Shown here: positions 3,111 through 27,642 of the stretch, one piece after another
Numbering within the stretch: position 1 is the first letter of the stretch
How the letters are laid out: every line of letters starts with the position of its first letter
NCBI GenBank assembly: GCA_001899145.1
Contig: MKVF01000004.1
Span: forward strand, 124,001-188,000
Direction: 5' to 3'
DNA from: Flavobacteriia bacterium 40-80
GTDB taxonomy: Bacteria > Bacteroidota > Bacteroidia > Flavobacteriales_D > Crocinitomicaceae
DNA: 64,000 nucleotides
Notes under the pieces: model-generated
Told to the model about the DNA's origin: nothing
Databases searched by the model: none
Seen by the model: only the letters and a program-made list of their open reading frames with translations
Position numbers and translations under genes: made by a program

Positions 3111-3679
3111 TAGTATTTCTTGCTTAACAAAAGTAATCTTTTCATTTCTTTCAGGAGCGTAAAGGGCAGTTTGTTTGTATTATTTTTAACATCCGCAAGC
3201 GTATGGATTTTTTTGTCAGAAGCTTCTTTAATCGCTTCGTGAATATCCATGGGATCCGGCTCTTTGGAGACAATCAGCTGCTCATCAATTTCCAGAAAGT
3301 CAAACAAATTAGCAAAAGTTTTTTCATTCTCGCACATTTCCTTCAATAAAAGGGAAAGTTCTTCTATCGAAAAAGTGGCAAAGAGTCTTTGCTTCAGGGT
3401 ATTTTTATTAATGTAATAGGCATTGAACAAATCCGCCAGTGACAAATGATCATACGGAACAAGCACTGGCAGCACACTACAGGGAACGACTTCTCCGGGA
3501 AATAAATCCCGCTGCATTTCCAACAGCTCTTCCAGGCGTTCTATCCGCTTCTGAAACATTTTCAAAACCGGGACTTTCTGAATGGCAAACTGCCGGATCT
3601 CAAAAACTTCTTCTATTATTCCTTCCCGGATCGCTTCCAGCTCTTCAGCGGTAAATTCTATAAATTCATCTTCATTCAT
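3110..3679 (-). CDS. Unknown acidic, helical protein
   Basis: 189 residues, not recognised. It is soluble with no signal peptide or membrane helix. The first 25 residues are very acidic; residues 22-62 are predicted to form a coiled coil (IRQFAIQKVPVLKMFQKRIE, ERLEELLEM); the rest is helical and Leu-rich and ends in KEMKRLLLLSKKY. The start overlaps the TerC gene's end by 8 bp and its stop overlaps the DUF493 start by one base, so all three are tightly coupled. A function linked to TerC or DUF493 is only a guess from position. Confidence 0.75.
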   Translation of the reverse strand: MNEDEFIEFTAEELEAIREGIIEEVFEIRQFAIQKVPVLKMFQKRIERLEELLEMQRDLFPGEVVPCSVLPVLVPYDHLSLADLFNAYYINKNTLKQRLFATFSIEELSLLLKEMCENEKTFANLFDFLEIDEQLIVSKEPDPMDIHEAIKEASDKKIHTLADVKNNTNKLPFTLLKEMKRLLLLSKKY

Positions 3680-4448
3680 GATGTTCCGAGCCCTTGTGCT
3701 TCGCTTTATTCTTACGCATCCGGATGTTTAACATTTCCACAAGCAAAGCGTAGCACATTGCAAAATAGATATAACCTTTCGGAATTTCCTGACCAAATGA
3801 TTCTGCGATCAGTATCACACCGATCGTAACTAAAAATGCCAGTGCCAGCATCTTGATAGTCGGGCGTTTGCTTATAAAACCGGCAATTGCACCGGAAAAA
3901 AGCATCATTACCACCATGGAAATAATTACGGCTCCGAAAATGATCACCATCGGGTGCTTGTGCGGATCGCCATGGCCGATTTCATTCGTCATACCAATAG
4001 CCGTGATAATCGAATCAAAGCTGAAAACGATATCGATCATGATGATCTGAAAAATCACGCTGCTCAGCTTTGATTTTCCTTTTACCTCATCATCATGGTG
4101 AACGCCTTTCACCGTTTCAGACATTTCCTTGGTACTTTTGTAGATCAGGAAAAGCCCTCCCAGCAAGAGCACCAGGCTCTGACCGGAAAACGGATGGTCA
4201 AGGAACACAAACAACGGCGTTGTCATTTTCATTATCAGCGACACCAGCGACAGCAGGATCAGCCGGACAATCAATGCCATTGACAAGCCCAGATTTCTGG
4301 CCAGCCGTCTTTTTTCTGCCGGAAGCTTATCAGAAATGATGGAAATAAAAATAATATTATCAATACCCAGTACGATTTCCAGAAGTGTAAGGACTACGAG
4401 GTAAAAAATCCCTTCAGATGTTGCTAAAATGGAAAAATATTCTCCCAT
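3672..4448 (-). CDS. TerC family integral membrane protein
   Basis: 258 residues with about seven transmembrane helices. The two hallmark acidic motifs are present: LLEIVLGIDNIIFISI near residue 25 and DIVFSFDSIITAIGM near residue 140; their Glu/Asp residues are thought to bind metal within the membrane. TerC/Alx proteins are associated with manganese export at alkaline pH, metal loading of exported proteins and tellurite resistance. It starts 31 bp after menD and overlaps the next gene by 8 bp. There is no ter operon here, so a housekeeping metal-export role is more likely than tellurite resistance. Confidence 0.92.
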   Translation of the reverse strand: MGEYFSILATSEGIFYLVVLTLLEIVLGIDNIIFISIISDKLPAEKRRLARNLGLSMALIVRLILLSLVSLIMKMTTPLFVFLDHPFSGQSLVLLLGGLFLIYKSTKEMSETVKGVHHDDEVKGKSKLSSVIFQIIMIDIVFSFDSIITAIGMTNEIGHGDPHKHPMVIIFGAVIISMVVMMLFSGAIAGFISKRPTIKMLALAFLVTIGVILIAESFGQEIPKGYIYFAMCYALLVEMLNIRMRKNKAKHKGSEHHE

Positions 4449-20548: not shown

Positions 20549-20916
20549 GTGTACTGAAAAAACGGAAAAACGTTACTACAAATCCGTATTTTTATACAAC
20601 AACCTATCTTCGATCATTCCGGTATACGGGTCATTTTTGTTAAAAACCGGTCTTGTTTTTTATAAAGTCGTTAGTAAATTCCTAAAAAATTACTTTTATG
20701 ATTATTGAAATGTTAAAATCGGAGAAAGTACTGAAATAAGACCTTATCTTTGCTACAAGTAGTTGGACAACCATTACGGTTGTTTTAATTAGTTTTCATA
20801 AGTAGTAGTAGTTAGGTTAGGTTAGTTCAGAATGCAGGCGGAAGTCTGCATTCTGTTTTTATATATCTTTACATCAGGTAAAAGCATGACAGCCTAAATT
20901 GAAATAACGTTCCAAA
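20535..20916. other. Divergent intergenic region
   Basis: About 380 bases between two divergent genes. It holds the leftward operon promoter at its left edge and a rightward small-RNA candidate with promoter and terminator (20745-20866) at its right. Bases 20550-20740 show nothing recognisable. Confidence 0.6.
20757..20866 (+). ncRNA. Candidate small RNA A
   Basis: A TATCTTTG box at 20745-20752 predicts a start near 20757. The transcript has hairpin ACAACC-ATTAC-GGTTGT (20767-20772 and 20778-20783), a single-stranded stretch with TAGTAGTAGTTAGGTTAGG, and a 10-bp perfect stem CAGAATGCAG/CTGCATTCTG (20828-20837, 20846-20855) followed by TTTTT. No reading frame of note. It may be a free small RNA or a terminated leader of the nuclease gene at 20917. 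Confidence 0.6.
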
Positions 20917-23727
20917 ATGAAAACTTTCGTTTCTCAGATCACTGATTTTATTCTCGCCCAAAACAAGCCTGTTCATGAATGGGTAATTATTGTCCCTTCC
21001 CAACGTTCCGTAAGATATATTCAGAAATCATTATTTGAAAAAACGGAAAAACCGCTGCTTTCTCCGAAAATTATCACCATTAATCGTTTTTTCGAAACTG
21101 TTTCTCCCCGAATGGTCCTCGATAAAACACGTCTTTTAATGAAGCTCTACGAAATTCACCACTCCTTTTCTACTTCGGAGAACAAGTCTTTTGATGAATT
21201 TTACAACTGGGGGAAAACGCTGTTAAGTGATTTCGATGAAATTGACCGTTATAGAATTGATTCAAAAAATCTGTTCAAAAACCTGAGAGACATCAAGGAG
21301 ATCGAAAACTGGAGCTTTAATTCGGAGCAGCTGACAGAAACACAGCTGAAATTTATAAAGTTCTGGGAAGAGCTGGGCATTTATTATAACGAATTTCAAA
21401 AACAGCTTTTTGCCTCTAATTCTTCTTACATGGGAAAAGCGCTTCGGGAAATCACTGAAAATATCGACTGGATTTTAAAAAAATACCCCGCTGAAAAGTT
21501 TCTGTTCGCGGGATTTAATGCGCATTCACCGGCGGAGCTCAGCATTATTAAACAATTGATGGTGTTGGGAAAAGCCGATATTCTGTTTGACGGCGACGAA
21601 TATTATATGCACAATGGCCTGCATGAAGCAGGAGCTTTTATTCGGAAAAACCTGGATACGCTGGGAATCCCGATGAAACTGGCTGAATTTAAAAACAATC
21701 TTTCTCAAAAATCATTAGAAATTAATGTCATTGCCTGTGCTCAGACAACAGGACAAGTGAAAGCAGCGGCGAGCATTCTGGAAAAAATGCCCGAAGAGCA
21801 CATTTCAGAAACGTTAATACTGCTGGCAGAAGAAGACCTGCTGGTTCCTCTTTTAAAAAATATTCCCGCAAAAGTAGGCAAAGCAAATATTACCCTCGGG
21901 TTGTCATTAGATAACAGCATCCTCAAAACGTGGATTGAGCTGATCTTTAAGGTACAGAAAGGTCTCCAAAATAAACCGGCGGCTTATCATAAAGATATTT
22001 TTGAAATCTGCTTCCATCCTTTTATCGAAGAGATCCTAACAGAAGAAGAGAAACAGGAGCTGATCCTGTTTGAAACAAACTTCAAAAAGAACAACCTCAT
22101 TTACGCCAGCCCGGGCTCATTGAAATTACCAGGAAAAATCAAATCCGTTTTTGAATTGATCTACACCAAATGGGAAAATAACTGGCTCTTTGCGATCGAA
22201 AAGATCAGAGATATCAACAGCCGGATCTATCACTATCTGAAAAAGGAAAACGAGTACGAAAAAGCGCTTCTTGAAACGTTCGACAGTGGTATTATTGACC
22301 TGCAAAACTGTGCTTCCGAAGGAATCCCTGAAATGGGGCTCGGAACATTTAAAAACCTGTTTACGCAACATTACGCGTCTCTTACTATCTCTTACTTCGG
22401 GAATCCGATCGACGGACTGCAGATCATGGGATTACTGGAAACAAGAATGCTGGACTTCAAACGGATCATCTGCATTGGCATCAATGAAAAGAACATGCCA
22501 CCAAACAATCAGATAAATTCTCTGATACCAATGGATTTAAGAAGCTATTTCGGCTTACCGACCGTTCGTGAGAAACAGGGAATTTTTGCACATCACTTTT
22601 ATCGTTTACTGCATGAAACCGAAGAATTACACCTCACCTATTCTACGAATATGGAAGGAATGAATTCTTCCGAAAAATCGCGTTACATCATGCAGCTGGA
22701 GCTGGAGTTAACGAAAACCAATCCGAACATCCGGTTTAATTACAGCGATTATACCATTGATAACAATGAAGTATTGATCAACGATACTGTCATTGAGAAA
22801 AATGAGTATAACCTGGAATTGATAAAAAACTACCTCGAACAGGGCGCTTCCGCATCAGCGTTGGGAAGTTACTATACTTGCCCGCTGGATTTTTTCTATA
22901 AATACATTCTCAGGTTCGGAGAGGAAATCCGTATTGAAGAAGACATTGAAGCTTCAACGTTCGGAAGCCTTATTCATGAAACACTGGAAACACTTTATGA
23001 ACCACTGGCAAATAACACGTTGAAAGATAAAGATACGATTCTCAAAAGATTCGATGGTGAGCAATTGAAATTTTTCAGAAAGCACGCGGATTATGAATTA
23101 ACACAGCACTTTGAAAAGCATTTTAAAAGCAAAGAGGCCTTTTCTTCGGGAAAAAACCGCTTAAACTTTGAAATGGCAAGCCGTCTGATCCGCAACTTTT
23201 TCGATTACGAAAAAAAGCATCTGGAAACAACGGAAGAAGTGATTTATATCGAAGCGCTGGAACAAAAACTGACTGCAGAAATACCTTACATTTCACTGGG
23301 AAACTCCGAAGAAACCATTACACTCCGGCTGAAAGGAATTATCGATCGGATCGATTACCACACTAACGGTTATCATATCATTGACTACAAATCAGGAAAG
23401 GTAGAATATAACAAGCTGAAAATAAAGGAAGTTTCAGAAGAAGCTCTTTACAAGGCATGTGTAAATTATAAATATTTTCTGCAATATTATTTTTACTTAT
23501 ACCTGTTCTATAAAAATCATGGATTTTGCCCTCAGACGGTTACTTTCGTTTCTTTTGTAAACCTGAAAGAAGTGGAGAGTATCCATAATGACGGCCAGAT
23601 CTTCGAGGCTATGGTGGAGTTATTTCCTAAAGTAATGCAACGTATTGTTAGTGATCTTTGTAATCGGCAGGAGCCTTTCATACATAAAGAAAAAAATGGT
23701 TACAGTTACTGTAATTTCTGTGTATAA
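20917..23727 (+). CDS. AddB-like PD-(D/E)XK nuclease
   Basis: 936 residues. The N-terminal two thirds resemble an inactivated superfamily 1 helicase as in AddB (WVIIVPSQRSVRYI at the Walker A place but no Lys). The C-terminal nuclease domain has GSLIHETLETLYEP (His), then GIIDRID and IIDYKSGK (Asp823, Lys825). Cysteines in SYYTCPLDF and the final YCNFCV fit the four-cysteine iron-sulfur staple of AddB. It would work with an AddA/RecB-like helicase in double-strand break repair; that partner is not in the window. Convergent with the next gene, with 46 bp between them and no clear terminator. Confidence 0.85.
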   Translation: MKTFVSQITDFILAQNKPVHEWVIIVPSQRSVRYIQKSLFEKTEKPLLSPKIITINRFFETVSPRMVLDKTRLLMKLYEIHHSFSTSENKSFDEFYNWGKTLLSDFDEIDRYRIDSKNLFKNLRDIKEIENWSFNSEQLTETQLKFIKFWEELGIYYNEFQKQLFASNSSYMGKALREITENIDWILKKYPAEKFLFAGFNAHSPAELSIIKQLMVLGKADILFDGDEYYMHNGLHEAGAFIRKNLDTLGIPMKLAEFKNNLSQKSLEINVIACAQTTGQVKAAASILEKMPEEHISETLILLAEEDLLVPLLKNIPAKVGKANITLGLSLDNSILKTWIELIFKVQKGLQNKPAAYHKDIFEICFHPFIEEILTEEEKQELILFETNFKKNNLIYASPGSLKLPGKIKSVFELIYTKWENNWLFAIEKIRDINSRIYHYLKKENEYEKALLETFDSGIIDLQNCASEGIPEMGLGTFKNLFTQHYASLTISYFGNPIDGLQIMGLLETRMLDFKRIICIGINEKNMPPNNQINSLIPMDLRSYFGLPTVREKQGIFAHHFYRLLHETEELHLTYSTNMEGMNSSEKSRYIMQLELELTKTNPNIRFNYSDYTIDNNEVLINDTVIEKNEYNLELIKNYLEQGASASALGSYYTCPLDFFYKYILRFGEEIRIEEDIEASTFGSLIHETLETLYEPLANNTLKDKDTILKRFDGEQLKFFRKHADYELTQHFEKHFKSKEAFSSGKNRLNFEMASRLIRNFFDYEKKHLETTEEVIYIEALEQKLTAEIPYISLGNSEETITLRLKGIIDRIDYHTNGYHIIDYKSGKVEYNKLKIKEVSEEALYKACVNYKYFLQYYFYLYLFYKNHGFCPQTVTFVSFVNLKEVESIHNDGQIFEAMVELFPKVMQRIVSDLCNRQEPFIHKEKNGYSYCNFCV

Positions 23728-23773: not shown

Positions 23774-25351
23774 TTATCCTCCGTTGGGCAGGTAATTCTT
23801 TCTTCCCGAAGTCAGCTCCTGACGGAATTTTTCCTGGGCGATCTGTTCAATGGACTTTTTATCAATTTTAGATTCCAGCCAGGCAATAATATCCAGGTAC
23901 ATAAACGGGCGCTGCTCAAACTTTGATTCACTCAGCTTCTTTAAACGGCTCAAAAGCTGCTTAAAGCTTTTCGTTACTTCTGAAGGCAACAGTTTCGGAA
24001 CATTCCGGATATAGTTCAGTACCTCCCTTTGAACTCCTTGTAAATCACCATTTTTACTCAGATAACGATAAACCGATTTCAACTGATATTCAACCAGCAT
24101 ATCATTCCCCAGCTCATAATGAGCGATCAATATAAGAATATGAGCAAAAGATAAAATATCTTCCCGCAGCGACTGATTTTTGAGTGCAAGCACCTGATTC
24201 AGATAATGAATGGCTTTTTTAAAGTCACCTGTTCCAAAATACAAGCAAGCGATCTTGTAATAAAGAACTATGATCCGGTGCGTATCTATCTTTGTTTCAG
24301 CAGCATCCAGAAAATCCGTTATTTCGCCTATGCAGCGAAGCCCCCGGCTGTATTCTCCCTGAAGAAACCTCAAATTCAGCAGGTTAGTATAGGTATATTG
24401 CTGATGCAGCAACTGAATATTTTCACTTTCTTTCTCTGATGGTTTCAATTGCTCAAAATAATCAAATGCTGCCTGCATCCGTTTGTAATTTCTTAGGTAA
24501 AATAAAACTAAAATAAGGTTGTGAATACTCTTAAAGAACAGCTCCTTATTCTGTTCTGCCTGAAATTTATTTTCCTTAAACAAATCAACCGTTTTCTGTG
24601 CATATTTGAAGCACATCAGGAAATCCTGCTGAATATAGTAATAACGAAAATAGGCACTATACAAATGGAATTTTTCTGTGAAGCTCAGTTTTTTATAATC
24701 AATATCCGGGAGCTTGGACTGAAAAAAATCACGGACAAACATGAAATCTTTTTCATCTCTGACAAAGCCAACTTTCAGATACAGGGAATAGAGCTGTAAA
24801 GACAGATTGGACAAACTTACCAAACCGTTCACCCGCTCTTCTATTTTGAGGCTTTTAGCTGACAGCTCATCTGCCCGCGCACCTATGCTCCTCGTCACGT
24901 ACTGCGATTCAATGAATTTAATTTTTTCGATGATCAGCAAATTCTGAATGGAATTATCCAGCTTTATGGCAAGAAACTTCGCCTTTTCCAGGAGCTTCAA
25001 CGACTGAAGATACAATCCCCTCATATACAAAAGCTCTGCATTCTCTATATGCTCGTTTACCTCAAATTCAAGGATTTTATTCGAAGAGTTCAAACGGATG
25101 GAAGTCAGCAGCTGCCTGTATAAATGTGCCTTAAGATTTGCAAGCTGTACCTTTTTAATCTGAGGATTCTTCTTGATGATCTCCTCATCAGAAGCATCAG
25201 GGAACTTTTCTAAAAAGTCAAACAGCACAAGGAATTTTAATTCCTCCGGATTGGATGTGGTTCTTTTGGCGAACAGCTTAAAACTTCGTTTTTCTGCCTT
25301 GGAAAGTGATAAAATCAGCTTATTTAAACCCTCTGAAACTGTACTAGACAT
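23774..25351 (-). CDS. Unknown helical-repeat (TPR-like) protein
   Basis: 525 residues, not assignable to a named family. It is soluble, with no signal peptide, and almost wholly helical. Paired helices recur, for example ENAELLYMRGLYLQSLKLLE and YYKIACLYFGTGDFKKAIHY, a TPR-like pattern. It starts SEGLNKLILSLSKAEKRSFK, rich in Lys, and ends with QEKFRQELTSGRKNYLPNGG. Such solenoids usually bind other proteins. It stands alone between the nuclease gene and a small-RNA candidate. Confidence 0.75.
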   Translation of the reverse strand: MSSTVSEGLNKLILSLSKAEKRSFKLFAKRTTSNPEELKFLVLFDFLEKFPDASDEEIIKKNPQIKKVQLANLKAHLYRQLLTSIRLNSSNKILEFEVNEHIENAELLYMRGLYLQSLKLLEKAKFLAIKLDNSIQNLLIIEKIKFIESQYVTRSIGARADELSAKSLKIEERVNGLVSLSNLSLQLYSLYLKVGFVRDEKDFMFVRDFFQSKLPDIDYKKLSFTEKFHLYSAYFRYYYIQQDFLMCFKYAQKTVDLFKENKFQAEQNKELFFKSIHNLILVLFYLRNYKRMQAAFDYFEQLKPSEKESENIQLLHQQYTYTNLLNLRFLQGEYSRGLRCIGEITDFLDAAETKIDTHRIIVLYYKIACLYFGTGDFKKAIHYLNQVLALKNQSLREDILSFAHILILIAHYELGNDMLVEYQLKSVYRYLSKNGDLQGVQREVLNYIRNVPKLLPSEVTKSFKQLLSRLKKLSESKFEQRPFMYLDIIAWLESKIDKKSIEQIAQEKFRQELTSGRKNYLPNGG

Positions 25352-25452
25352 CGTAAAAAAAGTATAGTGAAAAATGAATTAAGCTATTTAAAATAAGTAT
25401 GTTAAAAAATATTTTTAAATTTTGAATATCGTAAAATACAATTTTTTTTGTT

Positions 25453-25482
25453 TTGCATATCCACTATGAACGCATAACTTTG
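25453..25482 (+). promoter_or_regulatory. Promoter of small-RNA candidate B
   Basis: TTG (25453-25455), 19-bp spacer, TAACTTTG (25475-25482): a very good match to the Bacteroidota consensus, with no protein gene downstream on this strand. Confidence 0.7.
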
Positions 25483-25486
25483 TCGT

Positions 25487-25582
25487 ACACTTTGGATGAA
25501 TAAAAAATCATAAAGACAGAGTAGGGGTACTCGATTTTGATTAGTAGTGGGAAGGCAGCCGAATGGTTGCCTTCCTTTTTTA
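25487..25582 (+). ncRNA. Candidate small RNA B
   Basis: About 95 noncoding bases from a strong promoter to a strong terminator. A GAGTA-GGGG-TACTC hairpin (25519-25532) is followed by TTTGATTAGTAGT and then an 11-bp stem with a GAAT loop (25550-25575, one G-U pair) and a T-run. The gene beyond (paaZ) is on the other strand and ends at 25591, so this cannot be a leader of a coding transcript. Layout parallels candidate A. Confidence 0.7.
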
Positions 25583-25590
25583 TTTTTTGG

Positions 25591-27642
25591 CTATTTTGAC
25601 TGATCCAGCTTTTTCACCATTGTCAGGATCGTTGCAATAGCAACTGTCTCTCCCGTTTCATCATAAACATCTACCAGGAATTTCACAATTCCTTTCGCGA
25701 TATCATCTTCTGAACGTTTTTCCTGATCGATTTTTTCCTTTACTGTAAAACGGACACCTATTGTTGCTCCAGGATAAACAGGTTTCACGAAACGAGCTTC
25801 TTCCAGTCCGTAATTTAATAATACAGGACCTTTTTTCGGATCCACGAACAAACCTGCCGCTTTAGATAAAATGAAATATCCGTGCGCTACACGTCTTTCG
25901 AAAATGGTTCCTTCCAAAGAAGTTGCATCCATGTGTGCATAGAAATTATCTCCTGAAACATTCGCAAAATTCACGATGTCGGCATCTGTCACAGTATGCT
26001 TGTGCGTAAATACTGTATCCCCGATTTTCAATTCTTCAAAATACTGTCTGAAAACATGCGGATTGGCTTCCGGCATCGCCGCGCCCACTTGAAACTGCTT
26101 GGTTATCGCGGTAATTGTCGTAGGATGCCCCTGAATAGCTGTACGCTGCATATAATGTAAAACACCGCGCTTTCCACCCATTTCCTCACCTCCTCCTGCT
26201 CTTCCCGGACCTCCGTGAACAAGCAACGGCATTGGAGAACCATGTCCTGTGCTTTCTTTTGCACAATCTTTATTCAATACCAGGATGCGGCCGTGCATTG
26301 ACGCTGCTCCCAACACATATTCTGTCGCTTCCTTGTCACTCGGAGTGACAATAGAGGATACAAGCGATCCTTTCCCCATTTTAGCCAGCTCAATCGCGTC
26401 TTCTATGTTTTTATACGGCATAATAGTAGAAACAGGTCCAAATGCTTCGATCTCATGCACGTCTGTTTTTCGGAACGGATCATCATTGAAGAATAGAACC
26501 GGAGAGAAAAATGCTCCTTTTGAACGGTCTGCTCCGATCACCTCAAAGCTTTCCATATCTCCGAAAACAACTTCCTGGGTCTTTTTCAACGCCTCCACTG
26601 CTTCCAGCACTGCTTTCACCTGTCCTGCAGATGCTAAAGCTCCCATTCGCACACCTTCCGCTTTCGGATGGCCAATAGTTGTAGAAGCCAGGCGCTTGGA
26701 AACAGCTATTTTAACATCGTTCACCAGTTCTTCCGGAACCATGATACGACGAACCGCCGTACACTTCTGCCCTGCCTTGATTGTGATTTCTTTTGTCACT
26801 TCTTTTACGAATAGATCAAACTCTTCTGTTCCCGGCTTCGCTTCTTTTCCAAGAATCATCGCATTTAAAGAATCCGCCTCCAGGTTAAACGGAACATTTT
26901 CCCGTGCAATTACAGGTTTTGATTTCAGCATCAAACCGGTTGAAGCGCTTCCTGTAAATGTTACCACATCCTGAGAAGTCACGGAATCAATCAATTCTCT
27001 GGCAGAACCAGAGATCAATTGTAAAGAGCCTTCCGGCAGGATCTTTGAGTCAACGATATCTTTTACTACGGCTTCTGTTAAAAACCCCGTTATAGAAGAG
27101 GGCTTTACCACCGCAGGAACGCCCGCCAGTAAATTAACCGCGATCTTTTCCAGCATTCCCCAGACAGGGAAGTTAAATGCGTTAATATGAATTGCAACAC
27201 CTTCTTTCGGTACCATAATATGGTGTCCTATAAAGGAACCGTTCTTTGATAGTGGTGCTGCCTGTCCGTCCACGTAATAAGGCAGATCCGGGAACTGCTT
27301 TCTCAAAGAAGCATTGGCGAATAAATTTCCTATACCGCCTTCAATATCAATCCAGGAATCCACACGGGTAGCTCCTGTCCTGTAGCTTATTTCGTAATAC
27401 TTTTCTTTTCTCTCCAACAGGTATAAAGCCAGTGCTTTCAGCATCCTTCCTCTTTCCTGGAAGGTCATTTTTCTCAGCACTTTGGCTCCTTCTGTTCTGC
27501 CATATTGCAAAACAGCCTCAAAGTCAATCCCTTTAGAGGATGCCTCACCGATTACATCTCCTGTAACTGCGTCATAAACCGTCGTCTCCGCTCCTTCTCC
27601 CGCAACCCACCGGCCTAATACATAATTCTTAATAGTGTCCAT
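25591..27642 (-). CDS. paaZ: Bifunctional oxepin-CoA hydrolase / semialdehyde dehydrogenase PaaZ
   Basis: 683 residues, as expected. Residues 1-520 are an aldehyde dehydrogenase (VTFTGSAS, catalytic Cys in KAGQKCTAVRR near 295, Glu in NLEADSLN). Residues 530-680 are a MaoC-type hotdog hydratase (VNFANVSGDNFYAHMDATS, RRVAHGYFILSKAAG). In aerobic phenylacetate breakdown PaaZ opens the oxepin-CoA ring and oxidises the resulting aldehyde. No other paa gene is nearby, so the rest of the pathway is elsewhere or the enzyme has another substrate. Monocistronic. Confidence 0.93.
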   Translation of the reverse strand: MDTIKNYVLGRWVAGEGAETTVYDAVTGDVIGEASSKGIDFEAVLQYGRTEGAKVLRKMTFQERGRMLKALALYLLERKEKYYEISYRTGATRVDSWIDIEGGIGNLFANASLRKQFPDLPYYVDGQAAPLSKNGSFIGHHIMVPKEGVAIHINAFNFPVWGMLEKIAVNLLAGVPAVVKPSSITGFLTEAVVKDIVDSKILPEGSLQLISGSARELIDSVTSQDVVTFTGSASTGLMLKSKPVIARENVPFNLEADSLNAMILGKEAKPGTEEFDLFVKEVTKEITIKAGQKCTAVRRIMVPEELVNDVKIAVSKRLASTTIGHPKAEGVRMGALASAGQVKAVLEAVEALKKTQEVVFGDMESFEVIGADRSKGAFFSPVLFFNDDPFRKTDVHEIEAFGPVSTIMPYKNIEDAIELAKMGKGSLVSSIVTPSDKEATEYVLGAASMHGRILVLNKDCAKESTGHGSPMPLLVHGGPGRAGGGEEMGGKRGVLHYMQRTAIQGHPTTITAITKQFQVGAAMPEANPHVFRQYFEELKIGDTVFTHKHTVTDADIVNFANVSGDNFYAHMDATSLEGTIFERRVAHGYFILSKAAGLFVDPKKGPVLLNYGLEEARFVKPVYPGATIGVRFTVKEKIDQEKRSEDDIAKGIVKFLVDVYDETGETVAIATILTMVKKLDQSK

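Follow-up and report, generated by a model that had tools for sequence, protein, structure and literature searches.

Divergent pairs of a regulator gene and a small RNA (sRNA) gene, such as OxyR-OxyS, SgrR-SgrS, and GcvA-GcvB, are a known arrangement in enterobacteria, as set out in the relevant part of one account (PMC4423775). Within Bacteroidota, the portion of PMC11697453 that deals with FopS/GibS of Bacteroides (RF04319) describes an sRNA with a single-stranded stretch, a terminator, and a primary-sigma promoter. Rfp18 of Flavobacterium psychrophilum is presented in part of PMC9723704 as a structured, conserved, and independent sRNA of Flavobacteriales. A search of the open-access literature found nothing on sRNAs of Fluviicola or on small RNAs of Crocinitomicaceae. 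Here we describe a unit in a 64-kb stretch of DNA (the window) that, judging from comparisons among genomes, is very probably a real and conserved sRNA gene that is new to Rfam. It is divergently oriented to a gene for a TPR-like protein, its probable dedicated regulator.

The unit lies on the forward strand. Its promoter (25453-25482), read from the sequence, consists of a TTG at 25453-25455, a gap of 19 nt, and the -7 box TAACTTTG at 25475-25482. The predicted small RNA spans 25487-25582, with both ends placed from the positions of the promoter and terminator. Along its length are a GAGTA-GGGG-TACTC hairpin (25519-25532), recognized by sequence, fold, and conservation, then the conserved linker block TGATTAGTAGT (25538-25548; CGATTAATAGC type in relatives), which is the proposed site of pairing or binding, and finally an intrinsic terminator (25549-25582) composed of a 12-pair stem-loop (25549-25576) and a T-rich tail. 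A sequence-only reading of this DNA had already proposed the promoter, the GAGTA hairpin, the linker, and the T-run terminator, and inspection of the sequence together with a terminator scan placed all four exactly there. Two of its details needed correction. The terminator stem, given as 11 bp, has 12 pairs in the scan when G-T is allowed, and the linker TTAGTAGT (25541-25548), though correctly located, is the core of the longer block TGATTAGTAGT that is kept in relatives. Both neighbouring genes had been described as leftward, and they are: the TPR-like gene (525 aa) occupies 23774-25351 on the reverse strand, and a complete PaaZ gene (phenylacetic acid degradation bifunctional protein; 888.8 bits, cut-off 562.8) occupies 25591-27642, also on the reverse strand.

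The promoter pattern TTG-N18..21-TAnnTTTG is not rare on its own, with seven matches over both strands of the window. The linker core TTAGTAGT occurs three times against 1.21 expected, and at least three occurrences were reached by 11 of 100 shuffles, while GAGTAGGGGTACTC with up to three mismatches has one occurrence against 1.9 expected, that single match being exact. Folding of the 96 nt from 25487 to 25582 beats 200 of 200 dinucleotide shuffles (z -3.63), a value owed largely to the terminator. Neither the promoter pattern nor the linker pattern is uncommon by itself. It is conservation in relatives that sets the unit above chance. Rfam 15 at gathering score returned no matches in the window or in seven orthologous loci, and ARAGORN found nothing in the window.

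A 161-bp DNA query searched against 59 genomes matched the window's own genome and a 28-bp stretch in G016 (E 5.1e-4). TPR-like orthologues, 47-56% identical to the protein encoded in the window, served as a guide to the unit in relatives, and in seven of these a hairpin, a linker of the CGATTAATAGC type, and a terminator are present in the DNA upstream of the TPR-like gene. We built a model, R1, from six hairpin-plus-linker sequences without the terminator. Run on 200 genomes of the window's family, it gave 27 matches at E <= 1.8e-6 in 26 genomes, six of them the training genomes; by genus, the positive genomes comprise one from g1, six from g10, 14 from g11, two from g14, and three from g16. 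The unit is single in 25 of the 26; G145 is the exception, with two matches that lie on different contigs. The best match below this strong set has an E of 0.0012. Two genomes of g4 (G003 and G024), with R1 E-values of only 0.039 and 0.014, carry the same linker in the same place with a different hairpin. The loci of these two genomes and of the 26 strong ones make up the 28 loci analysed below, 14 of which come from one genus; core and terminator were found in six genera (g1, g4, g10, g11, g14, and g16).

A second model, R2, built from 27 sequences including those of g4, was run on 399 genomes of the order. Its 26 clear matches there (E <= 1.2e-5) all come from the window's family, most being its own training sequences, and four further matches are weak. 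On 395 genomes of the class it returned the window's own genome, G010, and two weak matches. R2 had no confirmed match outside the window's family in the order and class genomes sampled. Viewed by eye, the weak matches outside the family (G232, G247, G050, G775, and G700) and one inside it (G004) have no clear terminator behind the core; the one in G700 has an inverted repeat there. The weak R1 matches L090-L093 within the family have no adjoining TPR gene, and nine further R1 matches (E 0.035 to 0.73) look like chance.

An exact pattern run over a collection of named genomes found 16 records: seven Fluviicola, one Taishania, one Crocinitomicaceae, three Flavobacteriia, three Flavobacteriales, and one labelled Glaciecola. 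Since Fluviicola and Taishania belong to Crocinitomicaceae, we name this as the family of the RNA. A protein search for named relatives returned none. The last of these records (L103; CP034120.1, titled Glaciecola amylolytica) has both the RNA and the TPR gene, with promoter and terminator stretches the same as those of the Fluviicola-type genome G118, and looks mislabelled.

The unit had also been grouped with three other candidates in the window (A, C, and D) as a family of short transcripts. This was not borne out: in the window R1 finds the unit and one match at 4210 with an E of 0.73, and the genome as a whole holds a single R1 match. A loose TTTG...TAGTAGT pattern occurs at 46 places in the same genome, against 229 in a reversed control. 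Among the places viewed by eye (reverse-strand loci unturned, 16 places left out), two have the look of an sRNA gene, this unit and another near 20745. The latter (20745-20865, forward strand) has a similar layout, with a TATCTTTG box, a small hairpin, a AGTAGTAGTAG linker, and a 12-pair terminator at 20828-20855, is without a match to R1, and lies upstream of an AddB-like gene (20917-23727, forward strand). It could be a second sRNA, or else a leader of the AddB-like gene.

Each of the 28 genome loci has a terminator following the core, against 33 of 600 random 60-mers, and the promoter pattern is present in 20 of the 28, against 34 of 600 shuffles. When the 16 named loci are added, which come partly from the same genomes, the terminator is found in 44 of 44 rows and the promoter pattern in 32 of 44. 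The expectation that both hairpins are conserved in relatives holds for the first hairpin and the linker; the terminator recurs as a structure and not as a sequence. In a structure-fitted alignment of 27 rows (13 distinct), 95 of 95 cells pair, several rows doing so via G-U. Covariation is thin, because the three pairs that changed on both sides each rest on single g4 cells with fitted placement. The hairpin letters GAGTAGGGGT are identical in every row of alignment A5 but the two from g4.

Averaged over the linker block, the probability of being unpaired ranges from 0.43 to 0.88 across 11 folds; the value exceeds 0.5 in seven folds, and the block is more paired than unpaired in four. A hexamer within the linker (25540-25545 in the window) is self-complementary, with G-U allowed, in 27 of the 28 loci, reading ATTAAT in 18, GTTAAC in five, and ATTAGT in four; the ATTAAC of the remaining locus is not self-complementary. 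Kissing or dimer formation through this hexamer is conceivable, on thin grounds. The window's copy of the unit also contains a five-codon ATG frame, MNKKS, and frames run through the core in some relatives, as might be expected of a short mRNA for a tiny peptide. No start codon or reading frame common to the 28 loci was seen, however, and the core measures between 37 and 44 nt, with differences that are not in threes, so we give a coding role hardly any credence.

The only adjacency kept throughout the loci is that of the RNA and the divergent TPR-like gene (~525 aa), which is present at 26 of 26 strong-match loci and at 15 of the 16 named loci, the sixteenth being incomplete. Other neighbours vary, and some are shared. 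The gene behind the TPR gene is AddB-like in the window; no AddB-like gene was found beside the TPR gene in seven relatives, which have other genes there. Behind the RNA lie PaaZ, epimerase-like, or other genes (named by eye). One locus, L095, resembles the window in the AddB-like gene beside its TPR gene and Fluviicola in the epimerase-like gene that lies behind the RNA. The eight TPR proteins that accompany the RNA form one clade (support 99/98) in a tree of 19.

These neighbourhoods bear on whether the element acts in cis, as a leader, attenuator, or antisense RNA of an adjoining gene. Two named loci (L094 and L099) do have a same-strand gene starting about 140 nt past the core, and in one of nine loci the linker pairs with the 5' region of the TPR gene beyond all 40 shuffles. 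The other eight loci stay within their shuffles and show no special pairing, and linker pairing in cis with the TPR gene was rejected as a candidate. Past the terminator, different loci have different kinds of gene, and in the window and several relatives that gene lies on the other strand; nor does the RNA overlap the start of the TPR mRNA. We therefore consider a cis-acting element improbable. The claim of the sequence-only reading that this is a free-standing sRNA gene, neither a leader nor a 3' end, is supported by the recurrence of core and terminator in six genera with differing genes behind the terminator.

The intergenic DNA of all 28 loci contains a 13-bp site, O2 (TTGRNYATCGTAA; consensus TTG(G/A)N(C/T)ATCGTAA). 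In the window it reads TTGAATATCGTAA (25422-25434, forward strand) and stands 40 bp ahead of the -7 box, as the proposed operator of the RNA gene. A -7-type box follows O2 at 40 bp in 26 loci and at 41 bp in two, with no other offset within 34 to 47. Both patterns were drawn up with the sequences in view, and the box was broadened manually (e.g., to CAnnTTTG, GACATTTG, CATCTTCG, TAATTTAG, and TAATTTGG). In 27 of the 28, the TPR start lies 72-74 bp from O2. A second site, O1 (CTAGACATCGTAA; 25344-25356, forward strand), resembles O2 and overlaps the start codon of the TPR-like gene (25349-25351). Its agreement with TTGGACATCGTAA is 10-12 of 13 letters in all 28 loci, although three of these letters are the start codon itself, O1 having been read off at that codon in overlap with coding DNA. 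The two sites are 77-79 bp apart in 27 loci and 88 bp apart, about one helical turn more, in one. This layout occurs once in the window.

With conserved sites in the intergenic region, and with the hairpin and linker hexamer palindromic or nearly so, the whole element might be thought to work as DNA, GAGTA-N4-TACTC and the hexamer being operators and the transcript incidental. In several loci, however, the hairpin is kept through G-U pairs, which break the symmetry of the DNA, and the terminator follows the core without exception. The core also lies anywhere between 68 and 172 bp from O2, while the -7 box is fixed at 40-41. An operator function of the core is thus very improbable.

Twelve more distant TPR relatives were scanned for the site and box, with offsets of 39-41 offered and 200 shuffles each. 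The best pair was reached by at most four of 200 shuffles in eight of them. Those of L045 (77 of 200 shuffles), L048 (15), L052 (17), and L053 (165) were not significant; L045 has a clear pair at 39 bp outside the scanned stretch. The divergent partner is 2-isopropylmalate synthase (leuA), above cut-off, in L044 and L046, and FabH, also above cut-off, in L050-L052. Small frames with a weak likeness to leuB take this place in L043 and L047, and faintly so in L048, and no family was assigned by search to the partners in L045 and L049. In L042, from G045 of another family of the order, a 114-nt stretch at about 3140-3270 with hairpins and a terminator-like end is divergent from the TPR-like gene; its sequence differs from the RNA unit and has no R1 match, and the layout of site, 40 bp, and box is similar. 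That one site keeps its distance from the promoters of different genes points to a regulator working at it, the simplest candidate being the adjoining TPR-like protein; in the six genera of the window's family, the gene in this slot is the small RNA. We tentatively raise the possibility that an old regulator, whose output was once an enzyme, came to control an RNA instead. The RNA would relay the regulator's signal, perhaps one tied to branched-chain or acyl metabolism, to further messages.

The TPR-like protein has weak TPR repeats in Pfam and no DNA-binding family at E <= 0.001. NCBIfam BT_2802_fam scores 128.9 bits against a cut-off of 550, and nothing linking BT2802 with ribose in Bacteroides was found in the open-access literature. 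The predicted model is all-helical (mean pLDDT 87), and a fold search with the whole protein returned ordinary TPR proteins. For residues 1-93 modelled alone (pLDDT 82.5), the best alignment is to sigma-E region 4 (Z 5.9, rmsd 3.0, 66 residues). The HTH proteins DesR, SP_1288, and FixJ come near the top with Z of about 5-6 (under 8), and unrelated rows are close behind. Foldseek gave no match to these residues at E <= 0.001, and a sequence search of solved structures gave a single weak match (E 0.0062). The modelled N-terminus may thus be HTH-like, a weak likeness that we take as a lead and not as a result. The conserved sites O1 and O2 would fit a neighbour that binds DNA.

Our preferred reading, which we hold with modest confidence, is that of a free-standing, conserved sRNA gene controlled by the product of the divergent TPR-like gene through O1 and O2, the RNA pairing with messages via its linker. 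Anatomy, conservation, fixed adjacency, site, and spacing are supported by the sequences compared; we infer that the RNA is transcribed, that the TPR-like protein binds and activates, and that the RNA base-pairs with target messages. The TPR-like protein would bind O2 at the RNA promoter and O1 at the start of its own gene, thereby setting the level of the RNA and controlling its own gene, and activation of the RNA is probable because of the position of O2. The transcript would end at the intrinsic terminator and act post-transcriptionally on other messages. Pairing through the linker (CGAUUAAUAGC type) is the most likely means, and the hairpin would serve as a stabiliser or a protein handle.

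Complements of the linker were sought as candidate targets. A 12-mer complement occurs at 17 places in 14 genomes; 12 of these are the sRNA genes and five are scattered. At L122 (G029) and L123 (G010), around 1501 on the reverse strand, an ATG follows a perfect 12-nt complement after 10-11 nt; these are possible single-species targets, not conserved across genomes. A 10-mer complement has 26 places in three genomes, against 16 in a reversed control, and blastn at 1e-8, by which diverged genes could be missed, found none common to the genomes but the sRNA's own.

The lack of a conserved target in these complement searches is also what would be expected if the RNA is real but binds protein, as a decoy or scaffold for an RRM or TPR-like protein, with no pairing to messages. 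Consistent with this, the letter identity of the hairpin GAGTAGGGGT (all but the two g4 rows of A5) exceeds the needs of pairing. Part of PMC11697453 reports that RRM proteins bind sRNAs in Bacteroides, and RRM_1 proteins are encoded in 25 of the 26 genomes with the GGGG hairpin and in neither of the two with the changed hairpin (G003 and G024). However, they are also found in 22 of 32 genomes without the RNA, and the contrast in g4 between hairpin and RRM comes from one lineage only. RRM proteins are thus possible partners of the RNA, not specific ones, and we regard a purely protein-binding role as rather unlikely; we retain the pairing RNA under control of its neighbour as the preferred reading.

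Compared with the Bacteroidota sRNAs, the RNA is like FopS/GibS, as characterized in that part of PMC11697453, in its single-stranded stretch, terminator, and primary-sigma promoter. FopS itself was rejected as its identity (16.9 bits, E 3.3; gathering score 56 bits). FopS is multicopy, whereas the present unit is single in nearly all strong-match genomes, and here a hairpin precedes the linker. By description only, it also resembles Rfp18, as portrayed in the part of PMC9723704 noted above, in being structured, conserved, and independent, but in the genomes sampled R2 gave no confirmed match beyond the window's family. Because comparison supplies its conserved core, a defined site, and a candidate for its regulator, the control, protein partner, and targets of the RNA are testable in Fluviicola and Taishania. 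If the change of partner is true, a small RNA now occupies the promoter slot that metabolic genes had under the same regulator.

In contrast to the enterobacterial pairs, no Hfq was found in eight of eight genomes searched. The neighbour also differs from OxyR, SgrR, and GcvA in being TPR-like, with no Pfam DNA-binding family at the threshold used. As in OxyR-OxyS, SgrR-SgrS, and GcvA-GcvB, to the extent that PMC4423775 covers them in the part cited, the sRNA gene is divergent from the gene of a candidate regulator, with a shared site region between the two. The locus is thus best read, on comparative grounds, as a putative regulator-sRNA pair arranged like OxyR-OxyS, the likeness being one of arrangement.
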